38,767 bases of DNA, taken from assembly GCA_016867815.1 (NCBI GenBank), contig VGIR01000020.1, positions 1-38,767 on the forward strand. The letters run 5' to 3'. A program made the translations under genes and the position numbers. Shown here one piece after another: positions 6,575 through 13,634 of this stretch. The stretch is from a candidate division WOR-3 bacterium. Lineage in GTDB: Bacteria > Hydrothermota > Tepidihabitantia > Tepidihabitantales > Tepidihabitantaceae. Below the pieces are notes generated by a model that saw only the letters and a list, made by a program, of their open reading frames with translations, did not search any database and was not told the origin of the DNA. Every line of letters begins with the position of its first letter. The stretch's first letter is position 1.

Positions 6575-6618
6575 ACCGACTCCTTTCAGGGTTCATTCGG
6601 CCCTGCATATGTGCTCTC

Positions 6619-6655
6619 TCACTATATGTATTCCCGTTCGCGGCACCTCCGCACA
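6619..6655 (-). repeat. 37-nt repeat, copy 2 (possible promoter region of 6574 gene)
   Basis: It is the partner of 4256-4292 and sits 45-81 nt upstream of the ATG at 6574. On the minus strand TATAGT could be a -10 box, which would give a leader of about 40 nt carrying the AAAGGAG site. No clear -35 box is seen, so a different sigma factor (possibly the one encoded next door) is conceivable. Confidence 0.5.
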
Positions 6656-6718
6656 CGATTTCCTCGAGAATCCATCTACCCCATGCACCCACCCCGTGGC
6701 CTGGTAAGCCCTATCGCA

Positions 6719-6994
6719 GCCCCTTTCCGACTGCGTTTCGAGATTCCTTTCCGAGTTCGTTTCGACTTCCCTTTCAAAACCCCTTCCGAGTTCCCTTTCG
6801 CGGCTCGTTTCGCGACCCCTTTCGACCTGCGTTTGTCGATTCCTTTCGCGGCCCCTTGCTCGATTCCTTGCGCAGTCCCAAGCGAGACCCCAAGGGCGGC
6901 GCCTTGCGGATTCCCTTGCTCAGTTCCTCCCGACCTGCGTCTCGCCTTCCCTTTGGACTTGCGTTTCGACTTCCCTCTCGAACTGCCTTCCGCA
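6719..6994. repeat. degenerate 12-bp tandem repeat, 23 units
   Basis: Twenty-three consecutive 12-nt units with no spacing errors follow a loose consensus TTC-CCT-TTC-GAC. On the plus strand every unit reads hydrophobic-(Pro/Arg)-(Phe/Cys)-x. On the minus strand one frame reads a basic R-K-G-x tetrapeptide repeat, broken by a single TGA at 6776-6774. Neither frame has a convincing start signal, although both give open frames (6611-7090 plus; 6998-6774 minus). The strict multiple-of-three periodicity suggests a current or former coding repeat, but I do not call a gene. Confidence 0.75.
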
Positions 6995-7086
6995 GCACAA
7001 ACGTCGCTGAGTTTGAAGACGAGTCCGACCCAGATTCCGTCGCCAGCTTCGCCGCTTACTTCGTCGTCAGGTCTGTCGCAGTCACG

Positions 7087-7114
7087 TTGACATTCGTCTG
7101 AGGAGAGGTATCCT
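7087..7114 (+). promoter_or_regulatory. promoter of the PIN-toxin gene, leaderless
   Basis: TTGACA (7087-7092), 16 nt, TATCCT (7109-7114). The GTG start is 6 nt after the -10 box, so the transcript should begin at or next to the start codon. Confidence 0.75.
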
Positions 7115-7120
7115 TTCGAC

Positions 7121-7603
7121 GTGAAACAGCGACCGCTGCTCTACATCGAGACTTCGGTCTTCGGGTTCTACTTCGACCCGAAGCCGTTCAACACTCTGCG
7201 GAGGCAGGCGGCTGCGACGCTGTTCACGCAGATCGAAGCCGGGATCTTCAGAGCGGTGACATCGCCTCTAACCACCAAAGAACTGAGCCGGTCGGCCGAA
7301 CCGCTGCGGTCGGAGCTGTTGGACCTGGTCGAACGCGTCGAAGAGCTTACGCTCGACGAAGATGAGGTAGAACGGTTGGCAGGAGCCTACCTGGCTGATG
7401 GCGTGGTGCCGGCCGACTTTGCCGACGACGCCAGGCACGCGGCCTATGCAACGATTGCCGGGGCCGATGTGCTGGTATCCATGAACCTCCGGCATCTGGC
7501 GAACGAGTGGGCCGAGCGCAGGCTGAACTCCGTGAACCTGCGCGAAGGATACGTGCTTATCGGAGTCCGAACGCCCGAAGAGGTGTTACGCTATGACGAA
7601 TGA
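7121..7603 (+). CDS. PIN-domain protein, probable toxin of a type II TA pair
   Basis: The 160-residue protein begins at GTG 7121. The N-terminal strand YIETSVFGFYFD is a PIN-type start in which the first acidic residue is Glu. Later acidic positions follow in FADDARHAAYATIAGADVLV, and the closing S-M-N-L-R-H-L-A-N motif is typical of this PIN subfamily. PIN proteins are Mg2+-dependent RNases, and as VapC-like toxins they cut tRNA or rRNA. The gene overlaps the next small gene by 11 nt, the usual arrangement of a TA pair, here with the toxin first. The leaderless promoter is described separately. The target RNA cannot be predicted. Confidence 0.8.
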   Translation: MKQRPLLYIETSVFGFYFDPKPFNTLRRQAAATLFTQIEAGIFRAVTSPLTTKELSRSAEPLRSELLDLVERVEELTLDEDEVERLAGAYLADGVVPADFADDARHAAYATIAGADVLVSMNLRHLANEWAERRLNSVNLREGYVLIGVRTPEEVLRYDE

Positions 7604-7787
7604 AGACGTCGATTTCCTGGAGTGGCTGCACGACCAGCGCCGGGCGGCGGAGGCCGACCGGAAGCGGCGCGGCCTGTCCGGCGCAGACTACCTGCGCGAA
7701 TGTGCACGGGAGGCGGCGAAGGTAAGAGATGAGATGGAAACGCGCCGTCAAGTGACGGTCAGCGACAAGCCGCAGTCAGACAACTGA
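7593..7787 (+). CDS. small antitoxin-like partner of the PIN protein
   Basis: This 64-residue charged helical protein (ATG 7593) starts inside the PIN gene. The pattern F-L-E-W-L-H-D-Q-R-R-A-A-E-A-D-R, then L-S-G-A-D-Y-L-R-E-C, resembles the small proteins often encoded directly after PIN genes of this type. Its role as antitoxin is inferred from overlap, size and charge. I see no DNA-binding domain. Confidence 0.65.
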   Translation: MTNEDVDFLEWLHDQRRAAEADRKRRGLSGADYLRECAREAAKVRDEMETRRQVTVSDKPQSDN

Positions 7788-10235: not shown

Positions 10236-10313
10236 GGGGACACTTCACTAAATAGAATCCGAAGCGCGTCAAGATGCTGTCGGTCCAAGGACAGCACCCC
10301 ATCTCGGGAAGCT
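10236..10313 (+). repeat. REP-like dispersed repeat, copy A
   Basis: It shares GGGGACAC, GAAGCGCGTCAAGATGC and CACCCCAT(C/T)TCGGGAAGCT with 10905-10972. Copy A carries a perfect 7-bp inverted repeat (TGCTGTC / GACAGCA, 10275-10296) that copy B has lost. Such hairpin repeats are often spread by RAYT/IS200-type transposases, though none is encoded here. Confidence 0.65.
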
Positions 10314-10319
10314 CCCAGG

Positions 10320-10485
10320 AGGCATTGCAGATTGCCGATTGTAGATTGCAGATTGGCGCGGGCGCAACCCACCGGCCCCAGGCCGCAAGCCTCCAGCTAG
10401 CGCAAGCACAAGCTCAAGCCCGCTGACCGCCTCCGGCCACTCTATCCCTTGATGCCTCGATCACTCGATCCCTCTCTCCTTCCAT
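10320..10485. other. intergenic short-phrase repeats
   Basis: The gap 10202-10520 has no gene. After the REP-like unit come GCAGATTGCCGATTGTAGATTGCAGATTG-type echoes of an 8-nt AGATTG(C/T) phrase (10327-10354), a GC-rich echo of CGCAAGC (10383-10410), and a C/T-rich run with (C/A)TCGAT(C/T) repeats before the promoter. Confidence 0.5.
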
Positions 10486-10513
10486 TTGACACCCCCGCCC
10501 GCGAGTCTATCAT
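10486..10513 (+). promoter_or_regulatory. promoter of the 10521 lipoprotein gene, leaderless
   Basis: TTGACA (10486-10491), 16 nt, TATCAT (10508-10513). The ATG is 7 nt after the -10 box and lacks a ribosome site. Confidence 0.75.
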
Positions 10514-10520
10514 ATCCGCA

Positions 10521-11006
10521 ATGAAGGGATTTCTGGTCTGTCTGCCGCTCGCTCTGGTCCTGGGCTGCAGCCTTCACTTTAGCCGCGGCGAGTTCAGGTA
10601 TCCGCCGACTGCCGGACCGGCTGAGCTCCGAATGTCGATAGTGTCGCGAGAACAGCACGCAAGAGCAGGCGAGCCGTTCTTCGTGACCGTCTCCGTTGTG
10701 AACACCACGGACTCGGTCTGTACGGCGGCTGTCGGCAACTGGGAATACGAGGGACCCGCAACGTTTGTCCTGATCGGACAGGCGGGTGACACATGGGATT
10801 ATCGACCGAACATCATCGCGGGGCTCAGGGTGTTGCTGGGCCCCAGTTTCTTCGGCATAGAGCCGCACGACAGCCTCTACCGGCACTATGTCAGGGCAGG
10901 AAAAGGGGACACGATACTTAATTGCCTCAGAAGCGCGTCAAGATGCGGACAGGCACCCCATTTCGGGAAGCTTCGGGACAACGCGCTGCCAGAGGCAGCG
11001 AGTTAG
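10521..11006 (+). CDS. lipoprotein, 3' end replaced by a dispersed repeat
   Basis: ATG 10521 opens a signal peptide with a lipobox (LALVLGCS, Cys near residue 14). The next ~110 residues look like an immunoglobulin-like beta domain (AELRMSIVSREQHARAGE, PFFVTVSVVNTTDSV). From about residue 129 (GDTILNCLRSASRCG) to the stop, the sequence is dispersed repeat copy B (10905-10972) plus filler. The gene was therefore probably longer and lost its 3' part when the repeat arrived. It may be non-functional; I call it a CDS because the frame, promoter and signal peptide are intact. Confidence 0.6.
   Translation: MKGFLVCLPLALVLGCSLHFSRGEFRYPPTAGPAELRMSIVSREQHARAGEPFFVTVSVVNTTDSVCTAAVGNWEYEGPATFVLIGQAGDTWDYRPNIIAGLRVLLGPSFFGIEPHDSLYRHYVRAGKGDTILNCLRSASRCGQAPHFGKLRDNALPEAAS
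10905..10972 (+). repeat. REP-like dispersed repeat, copy B (inside the lipoprotein gene)
   Basis: It is the partner of 10236-10313 with about 9 nt missing across the hairpin loop and one arm. It supplies the C-terminal codons of the lipoprotein gene. Confidence 0.65.
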
Positions 11007-11081: not shown

Positions 11082-12146
11082 CTAGCGGGCGTGCGCCGAC
11101 CGCTGGGGCTCGTGGTACTTGCTTAGGCGCTGGCTGCAGGCGGACAGCGAACGGCGAAAGCCTTTGTCGGTGAGGTCGCCAAGGAGACCTTGCGCAGCCT
11201 GGGTGAGCGGCGCGTTACTACGGTTCGCCCGATGGCCTCGCAGCCATCTGCCCCACGATTCGCAGATCCGCTTCTCTTCTTCGGACCAGCGACGCTGGTG
11301 GCGCAGGGTGTGCAAGCCGAGCTTCGCGGCCACGCGGAGGAGTTCCGCGTACGTGCGCGCCGGGGTCCGGCCGTAGTCCGGGCTCGCGCCGCCGGTTGCG
11401 CTTCGGGCGCGCCGGGCGTACTCGGCCTCAAGTTCCTTGTGGCAGGCTTCGCCCGCAGCGTGCCATGCCCCGGTATCGTCGGTCGTGACGCCCCGCGCGT
11501 AGCGCTCGATCAGTTCGCGCTCGAACGGTTCGCTGAAGCCGTGGTAGCGGGGCAGACCCATCTGCCTGAGAATCGGTTTCACCCGACCCCGGATCGCCTG
11601 CAGGCTGTGTCTGCGGCCGAGCGCACGGCTGCATTCTTCTGCCATCTGGGTCACGGTCCAGGGCCGGCCGCAGTGGAGCATCCGGACGTGCCGGTCGAGC
11701 ACCTTGAGTTCCGCTTTGGTCCACTCCTGGTCGTCTGCCGGCACGCCCATGGCCCGAATCGCCCTGGCCATGTGCCAGCATGTACCTTCGAGCGTGCGCT
11801 TGCCTCCAAGTTCGTCCGTGAGCTTCGGCAGGCACGCGCGGGCGGCGTCGCGCATCGTCGGGAAACGGCCGGCGAGAAACTCCCGCGCGTAGCGCTTTAC
11901 CGTCCGCAGCTCAGCCGGGGTCCAGAAGCTGAGGGCGTAGCCGAGCCCGAGAGTTCGGCACTGCGCTCCCAGGCGGGCGCGGACGGAGATGAGGGACCGG
12001 CGGGGATGCGAGGGGTTGAGTTCGCGGAGGGCTTCGAGTTCGCTGAGGCAGTCCGGCGCCGCCTCACCGGCGCTGCGGTACTTACCTTCGGCAAGGCTTC
12101 GGGCAAACCGGCTGACCACCTCAAGCTCTGGCTGAGTCCAGTTCAT
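11082..12146 (-). CDS. protein with five tandem Myb/SANT-like repeats
   Basis: ATG 12146 follows CGGGAG at a suitable distance. The open frame extends to 12425, but that part is of poor coding quality and contains a -10 box. The 354-residue protein consists of five ~65-residue repeats starting near residues 3, 75, 142, 204 and 287. Each begins with a Trp (Phe in repeat 4)-(T/S)-x2-3-E motif (NWTQPELE, FWTPAELR, EWTKAELK, FSEPFERE, RWSEEEKR), continues with a basic aromatic helix (R-Y-A-R type), then A-x-x-C and R-(T/S)-L. This resembles the Trp-spaced helices of Myb/SANT DNA-binding domains, though longer. The product is basic and has no signal peptide, so nucleic-acid binding is the likeliest role. 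The target is unknown. Confidence 0.65.
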   Translation of the reverse strand: MNWTQPELEVVSRFARSLAEGKYRSAGEAAPDCLSELEALRELNPSHPRRSLISVRARLGAQCRTLGLGYALSFWTPAELRTVKRYAREFLAGRFPTMRDAARACLPKLTDELGGKRTLEGTCWHMARAIRAMGVPADDQEWTKAELKVLDRHVRMLHCGRPWTVTQMAEECSRALGRRHSLQAIRGRVKPILRQMGLPRYHGFSEPFERELIERYARGVTTDDTGAWHAAGEACHKELEAEYARRARSATGGASPDYGRTPARTYAELLRVAAKLGLHTLRHQRRWSEEEKRICESWGRWLRGHRANRSNAPLTQAAQGLLGDLTDKGFRRSLSACSQRLSKYHEPQRSAHAR

Positions 12147-12227: not shown

Positions 12228-12624
12228 CGCGAAGTCTGCGCTCGCGCCAGAGGCGAGACCGAGACCCGCTACAGACCCGACCCCGGGGCGCCCATAGGCC
12301 GCTGACCGCTGTCGGCTTCCAGACACTCCCTGCCCCCGATTCCCAACCCCTGGCCCTTCTGCTTGGTCCAAGTTCGTCCGCAGATCATGAAACCATCCAT
12401 GCTCGATTCGTCTAAGTATCGTCATAGGCTACTGCAACTGGCTGTTCGTCTGGTATCGATTCCGGGCGTGCGACTTCTGTTCGGACCCTGAGCGGTTCGA
12501 GCAGCACGGCTCAGCACTTCTTCATCCTGTCCGGAGCCACGCTCAGCCAGCCCTCACCGGCCCTGTCGATCAGTCCGCCGGTCTACGCGGCGCTAGAAAC
12601 GGCGAACCGCAAGTCGTGGGGACT
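12228..12624. other. intergenic region without a supported gene
   Basis: Open frames exist on both strands but none has a start signal, promoter or recognisable product. A short plus-strand stretch near 12450-12510 (F-R-A-C-D-F-C-S-D-P) looks protein-like and could be a decayed fragment. Confidence 0.4.
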
Positions 12625-12926: not shown

Positions 12927-13634
12927 CTAGCGGAAGCGCGGCCAGAAGGCTGGTACCGACTCGGTGTAGGTCTTGAACTCGGACTTGAGCAGGTCGCTCA
13001 GGCGCGCGTCTTCGCTTCTTGTCTGCGTGAGCAGCAGCGGCAGGCCGACCGCAGCGGCGAGTACCAGTCCGCCCCAGGACCGGAAGACCAGTGCTGCCCC
13101 GACAAGCTGGATGAAGGTGGCGAAGTAGCGCGGATGACGAACGAACCTCTGGAACCTGAGTGCGACGAACCGCTTCTCCGGCAGGAGCAGCGTCTCTTCT
13201 TTGCTTCCCCGGGCAGGGGGTCTTACCTGTGCGATTCCGAGCAGGGCGAAGAGCGTGCCGAGCCGCAGATAGGTTCCGAGGCCAAACACGGCGAGGCCAA
13301 GCAACCCGGTGACCACTGCGGGAACAGGAATCTGTGTCCAATGCCACCAGATGAAATCCCCGGCGAGGTAGGCAAAGAATGGGTAGACGAAGAAGGCAAA
13401 GACGCCTCGCCATAGAGCCGAGTGCTCGACCACTCCGGACTGAAAGAAGGGCGAGCCGAAGTAGTACTCGATCGACAGCCAGAGGACGAAGAGGTAGGCG
13501 AACAACGTCGGCAGAGCCATGCGGTCGGGTATCGCATCCCGGAGGAAGTTGGTGAAGAAGAAGAGAAAATAGAGGGTCACAAGCGCCGTCCAGAGGAAAC
13601 GGCCCGGTTTGAATCTCTTGACGAAGCTGCTCAT
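12927..13634 (-). CDS. isoprenylcysteine methyltransferase-like membrane protein
   Basis: The 235-residue integral membrane protein has about five hydrophobic segments (for example TALVTLYFLFFFTNFL and VVTGLLGLAVFGLGTYL). The C-terminal part has the phospholipid/isoprenylcysteine methyltransferase signature: R-H-P-R-Y near residue 186, followed by a hydrophobic helix and an E-x-Y-T-E-S-V-P-like end. Bacterial members methylate unknown membrane substrates using S-adenosylmethionine. The ATG at 13634 overlaps the stop of the upstream gene (ATGA), so the two are coupled. Confidence 0.75.
   Translation of the reverse strand: MSSFVKRFKPGRFLWTALVTLYFLFFFTNFLRDAIPDRMALPTLFAYLFVLWLSIEYYFGSPFFQSGVVEHSALWRGVFAFFVYPFFAYLAGDFIWWHWTQIPVPAVVTGLLGLAVFGLGTYLRLGTLFALLGIAQVRPPARGSKEETLLLPEKRFVALRFQRFVRHPRYFATFIQLVGAALVFRSWGGLVLAAAVGLPLLLTQTRSEDARLSDLLKSEFKTYTESVPAFWPRFR

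Follow-up and report, generated by a model that had tools for sequence, protein, structure and literature searches.

A gene for five tandem Myb/homeodomain-like helix-turn-helix units in a candidate division WOR-3 bacterium, best described as a member of a new lineage-restricted family

The gene and its five units

The window analyzed here is a stretch of 38,767 nucleotides from a candidate division WOR-3 bacterium (contig VGIR01000020.1). An open frame on its minus strand extends from 12425 to 11082 and contains, at 12146, an ATG that gives a protein of 354 amino acids. This start was favoured because the closest relative found, a protein with 71% identity from a candidate division WOR-3 metagenome-assembled genome, aligns from residue 2. 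The gene and its flanking genes are as follows.

11082..12146, minus strand: gene for a five-unit tandem helix-turn-helix-like protein (354 aa; start placed at the ATG at 12146 and not at the other in-frame ATG, at 12425)
12927-13634, minus strand: predicted ICMT/PEMT-type methyltransferase gene (weak Pfam match), followed by an unmatched gene and gyrA
10449-11006, plus strand: small unmatched gene flanking the array gene on the other side

The changes between the window gene and its ortholog were distributed over the codon positions as 61/62/129, and dN/dS was 0.18/0.72 to 0.17/1.06 depending on the method, a ratio of about 0.16-0.26 by three methods. The window gene is thus under purifying selection, with dN/dS of about 0.2. 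Since the minus-strand protein is conserved at this level, the minus strand was taken as the coding strand and a plus-strand gene in the antisense frame of 340 amino acids was rejected; this long antisense frame is a by-product of the high GC content. The protein is basic, with a pI of 10.1 and a net charge of about +23. No catalytic domain was recognised in it.

The protein consists of five degenerate units of about 60-70 amino acids each. In the list below, the i-E values are those of a profile built from 218 units of other proteins, from which the window gene and its ortholog were left out.

11946..12140, minus strand: unit 1, residues 3-67, i-E 1e-19; modelled helices 5-19, 26-43 and 52-65
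11745..11924, minus strand: unit 2, residues 75-134, i-E 3.5e-20; predicted third helix RTLEGTCWHMARAIRAMG
11556..11723, minus strand: unit 3, residues 142-197, i-E 4e-15; the shortest, with the most Myb-like spacing of helices 2 and 3
11316..11531, minus strand: unit 4, residues 206-277, i-E 5e-11; long insert between helices 2 and 3, Trp missing at the start
11109..11288, minus strand: unit 5, residues 287-346, i-E 9e-14; C-terminal unit type, low model confidence

All five matches were in register (i-E 5e-11 to 3e-20) and the whole protein scored 202 bits, while the best of 2,000 shuffled window proteins reached 7 bits, so that the five repeat units of the original prediction were recovered in full. 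The 18 residues of the predicted third helix of unit 2 are identical in the window gene and the ortholog. The motifs by which the units had been recognised were mostly right, as W/F-[TS]-x-x-E does open the units, with one extra residue in unit 4, but A-x-x-C is absent from unit 5, which has AAQGL there, and unit 3 carries H-S in place of R-[TS]. Units 3, 4 and 5 each do without one or other of these elements and were all still recognised by the profile. At the family level the unit profile reads W[ST]xxE...RY/FxRxLxxGRY...AAxxC..EL...R[TS]xxAVxxRLxxRARxLG. Its consensus has a Trp opening helix 1 (column 1, Trp in 94%), Y, F, W or H in column 12, core positions with [AV] and L, R-[TS] before helix 3, L or I in column 58, and LG after helix 3. 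Of the three regularly spaced aromatic (Trp) core residues of Myb, no equivalent Trp was found in helices 2 and 3 of the unit consensus.

Predicted fold and comparison with known families

The full-length protein was modelled with AlphaFold2 from an alignment of two sequences, the window protein and its ortholog. Three helices were obtained in each unit, with a mean pLDDT of 69 and a pTM of 0.34, and confidence fell off in unit 5. A model of one unit, made from ten units, had a mean pLDDT of 84 and helices at 6-20, 27-37 and 44-58. When this model was compared with the PDB using Foldseek, the list consisted mostly of homeodomains and Myb domains (Exd, Prrx, RAD, ZZZ3) with TM scores of 0.5-0.64, these two classes making up about half of the 50 listed matches. 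The best E-value was 0.83 and no match was statistically significant, so the assignment to a Myb/homeodomain fold rests on the consistency of this list; the full-length model gave uninformative results in Foldseek. The predicted structures thus have the three-helix bundle with a helix-turn-helix known from Myb/SANT domains, and neither repeats without three-helix units nor a strong match to a different repeat family appeared. The three-helix fold is therefore supported by prediction, and the Myb/SANT-like fold proposed from the sequence was probably right.

Searches of Pfam, NCBIfam, PHROGs, PADLOC and PDB sequences returned no usable family for the window protein. None of the PADLOC-DB defence models matched it, and Pfam, NCBIfam and PHROGs gave no match to homing-endonuclease-associated repeats (HNH_repeat) or to another curated repeat family. 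Profile matches to BMC shell proteins and a match to PRDM9 were judged spurious. No Myb match at all was obtained for the window protein, and its relatives gave matches below the Pfam gathering score, the best to Myb_DNA-bind_6 with an E-value of 0.0022. Because the sequence resemblance to Myb is weak, "Myb/SANT-like" is used here as a description of the fold and not of proven descent. Literature searches found no description of such a family. The description that suits the protein best is that of Myb/homeodomain-like helix-turn-helix units in a tandem array, belonging to a new lineage-restricted family.

Several known systems resemble it in part. Myb/SANT domains (Pfam PF00249 and PF13921, for example R2R3-MYB) likewise form tandem three-helix units, with Trp opening helix 1, R-[ST] starting helix 3 and a basic third helix; the present family differs from them in keeping only the first Trp, in its long helix 1 and the variable insert between helices 2 and 3, and in being bacterial, with five units here and up to seven in relatives. 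RsfA and GcrA are bacterial Myb/HTH-type regulators with a single such unit. They share a W[TS]xxE...AVxxR...LGL-like pattern, but differ in unit number, and no NCBIfam or Pfam match was obtained here. Homeodomain fold proteins (Exd/Pbx, Prrx and Antp in the PDB) have the same three-helix topology, with TM scores of 0.55-0.64, but are single domains with no sequence similarity to the window family, and their E-values were not significant. Restriction-modification systems can include controller (C) proteins, which are short HTH dimers with a single domain. At the family level they are comparable as small HTH genes adjoining restriction genes, but the arrays consist of several fused units and in most cases follow the enzyme gene on its downstream side, and the window copy has no such link.

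The weakness of the matches to known HTH families could also be explained by a helical repeat scaffold for protein partners which merely resembles HTH units, and eukaryotic SANT domains often bind proteins. However, the third helices are basic, the pI is above 10, and the unit model comes closest in structure to homeodomains and Myb domains that bind DNA, which makes a protein scaffold very improbable.

The family, its third helices and a proposed role

A profile search of 147 genomes of the WOR-3 phylum gave 48 open frames with about 228 units, 1-7 units per frame, some of these frames being cut by contig ends or broken. They lie in eight of the 147 genomes, six of one genus and two others of the same family, and number 15, 15, 9, 3, 2, 2, 1 and 1 per genome, the single frame of the window's genome included; one further doubtful match had internal stops. 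No relative was found in phages, plasmids or viral contigs. As far as searched, the family is confined to one WOR-3 lineage; the sensitive unit-profile search covered the WOR-3 phylum, and the wider contig search used exact peptides of the window protein and could miss distant relatives in other phyla.

For every unit the nearest relative lay outside its own protein, and recent growth of the arrays by internal duplication was rejected on this ground. In 44 of 48 cases the nearest relative of a C-terminal unit was another C-terminal unit. These two observations indicate that the arrays were inherited whole.

Helix 3 is the most basic helix, with +2.8 per unit. Its exposed positions (columns 51, 52, 55, 56, 59 and 60), which we take to correspond to the base-contact positions of c-Myb, showed an identity between paralogs of 0.09, the lowest of all surface, compared with 0.14 for the surface of helix 2, 0.19 for that of helix 1 and 0.45 for the core; exposed positions vary in any protein, and these were also somewhat less conserved in close ortholog pairs (0.55 versus 0.64 for other surface in pairs with at least 60% identity). 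The divergent helix-3 surface would fit, rather than prove, a reading of different sites by different paralogs.

The five divergent three-helix units may jointly read one long DNA site through their basic third helices; if each unit contacts 3-5 bp, the site would be about 15-25 bp long. Since no catalytic domain was recognised, the array is proposed to work through occupancy of its site, and its most likely role is that of a regulator of transcription or a site-specific DNA binder. DNA binding, sequence specificity and a regulatory role are all three what we infer from these data, and a sequence-specific DNA-binding array with a probably regulatory role is the reading that we consider somewhat likely for the window protein. 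The high basic charge found family-wide (median pI about 11.3) and the many positive tandem units would also suit a general nucleoid protein that coats long nucleic acid, DNA or RNA, with no sequence specificity. Large paralog sets with divergent third helices, the patchy presence of the family and the single copy here suit a housekeeping coat poorly, and we regard such a protein as quite improbable.

Restriction-modification loci and signs of mobility

No neighbour family was common to all family loci. Type IIG or Type ISP enzymes or Type II methyltransferases were found directly upstream of, or close to, some of the family genes.

L043, L066: Type ISP/IIG gene directly before the array gene, same strand
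L049, L053, L068: Type IIG gene or its last codons directly before the array gene, same strand
L061: Type II methyltransferase directly before the array gene, same strand
L034, L038, L044, L063: array gene 1-4 kb downstream of a restriction-modification gene

Type IIG proteins of these genomes end in a 70-residue peptide that also occurs as isolated relics, and this peptide served as a marker of Type IIG 3' ends. Of 38 family loci, 15 had the peptide or relic within 2.5 kb, where chance predicts 1.07 (P 8e-13), and in all 15 it was on the strand of the array gene; 7 of the 38 had an N6-methylase gene within 4 kb, where chance predicts 0.97 (P 7e-5). These counts are approximate, as the Poisson tests treat the loci as independent and several contigs stop a short way from the genes. 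The search for homologues and their neighbourhoods, which the original prediction had proposed, thus led to a family linked at the family level to restriction-modification loci. In contrast, the window copy has no restriction gene, Type IIG relic or flanking repeat at its locus. The block of gyrA, the unmatched gene and the ICMT-type gene beside it is kept in five congeners (in one, G005, the contig ends inside the block), and none of the five has a family member at the orthologous site; the ortholog lies on another contig of its genome, with different neighbours.

The linkage raised the question of whether the array is a dedicated restriction-modification partner, which would bind at or near the restriction genes and control their expression in the manner of a C protein, or guide or restrain the enzyme. 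Several members begin 45-210 bp downstream of a Type IIG/ISP gene or its 3' end on the same strand, and two related Type ISP systems of different genera (L043 and L066) each have a member as the next gene. However, in many loci the array gene is open where the restriction gene survives only as relics, a restriction neighbour is lacking at the window gene, at its ortholog and at roughly half of the loci, and the same restriction 3' ends border other cargo. Such a partnership is therefore doubtful. Type IIG 3' ends were also found in arrays of genes with no family member, bordering a Mrr-like nuclease, DNA methylases, a PD-Lambda-4-like gene and others, and the loci are read as defence islands with array genes as common cargo.

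As a separate observation, isolated copies of the final ~70 codons of Type IIG genes were seen on the same strand, often about 1 kb apart, and these copies border genes for a Mrr-like nuclease, DNA methylases, FGE-sulfatase, TPR and PD-Lambda-4-like proteins.

L034 4384-6432; L133 3713-7011; L134 6186-8400; L135 5450-6604: isolated Type IIG 3'-end copies
L136 1512-5162; L137 1926-5059; L144 4308-4502; L145 4465-4653: isolated Type IIG 3'-end copies

The pattern suggests that cassettes are exchanged at the 3' ends of restriction genes in this WOR-3 lineage.

Repeats were also found around the array genes themselves. In L049 and L066 the array gene sits between two copies of the 3' end of the restriction gene, in L067 it has on both sides 77-bp copies (96%) of the start of a Fic-type gene (HPFGDGNGRVGR motif), and at L040, the locus of the ortholog, the flanking repeats are 64 bp long. 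When direct repeats of 45 bp or more were counted, 9 of 42 family genes had them on both sides, as did 8 of 189 other genes from these loci (Fisher P 8e-4); with dispersed repeats removed the numbers became 4 of 42 and 5 of 189 (P 0.06), which is not significant. The contrast with random anchors (9 of 42 against 1 of 700) was judged inflated, as random anchors often cut genes, and it became smaller when neighbouring genes served as the control. The flanking copies, and a gene position that differs between close relatives, might be explained by a single-gene mobile cassette, whose insertion beside restriction and other defence genes is aided by the array protein, or by a partner that acts on this protein, and duplicates 45-160 bp of the neighbour. 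Yet there is no transposase, integrase or nuclease domain, the excess of repeats is not significant under the same-locus control once dispersed repeats are removed, the window copy has no such repeats, and homologous recombination between pre-existing repeats would leave the same pattern. Such a cassette is unlikely, and the data are only suggestive of mobility of the array gene as a unit. The favoured reading joins the proposed sequence-specific binding to a view of the family genes as frequent accessory cargo of restriction-modification and other defence-type loci, apparently gained, lost and relocated one gene at a time.

Tandem Myb-like arrays form the core of many eukaryotic regulators, and we know of hardly any in bacteria. 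A broader and quite speculative picture would be a large bacterial family of modular HTH arrays whose recognition helices have diversified, in which every array reads a long DNA address of its own and travels as a single-gene cassette into restriction and defence loci, a bacterial counterpart in design of the expanded Myb or zinc-finger arrays. The arrays might also provide a new scaffold for DNA binding. As its frames carry 1-7 units each and its paralogs number in the dozens, the family offers a test case for whether bacteria evolved modular long-site DNA recognition on a Myb-like fold, and for whether such proteins control, or travel with, restriction and other defence genes.

Some minor features were seen alongside. 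In L067 (4594-4670 and 6073-6149) the array gene is preceded by a 77-bp copy of the first part of the intact Fic-type gene, and this copy makes a short, truncated frame whose end lies just ahead of the ATG of the array gene. A dispersed GC-rich hairpin repeat (CCCTCCCCCTTGAGGGGGAGGGAAGGGTGAGGGTGA) lies at 3190-3310 of L040 and on many contigs of three genomes (G000, G002 and G003), with many copies per genome. In the window, a direct repeat at 10236-10277 and 10905-10946 (GGGGACAC...GAAGCGCGTCAAGATGC, 81%) surrounds the gene at 10449-11006 and resembles intergenic repeats of the REP type. Farther away, 7121-7787 holds a likely toxin-antitoxin pair, judged by eye, of a PIN-like protein and then a small overlapping gene, and at 6611-7090 on the plus strand there is an odd frame of P-F-x-x-R-F-like repeats (RFATPFDLRLSIPFAAP...), which may be non-coding repetitive DNA.
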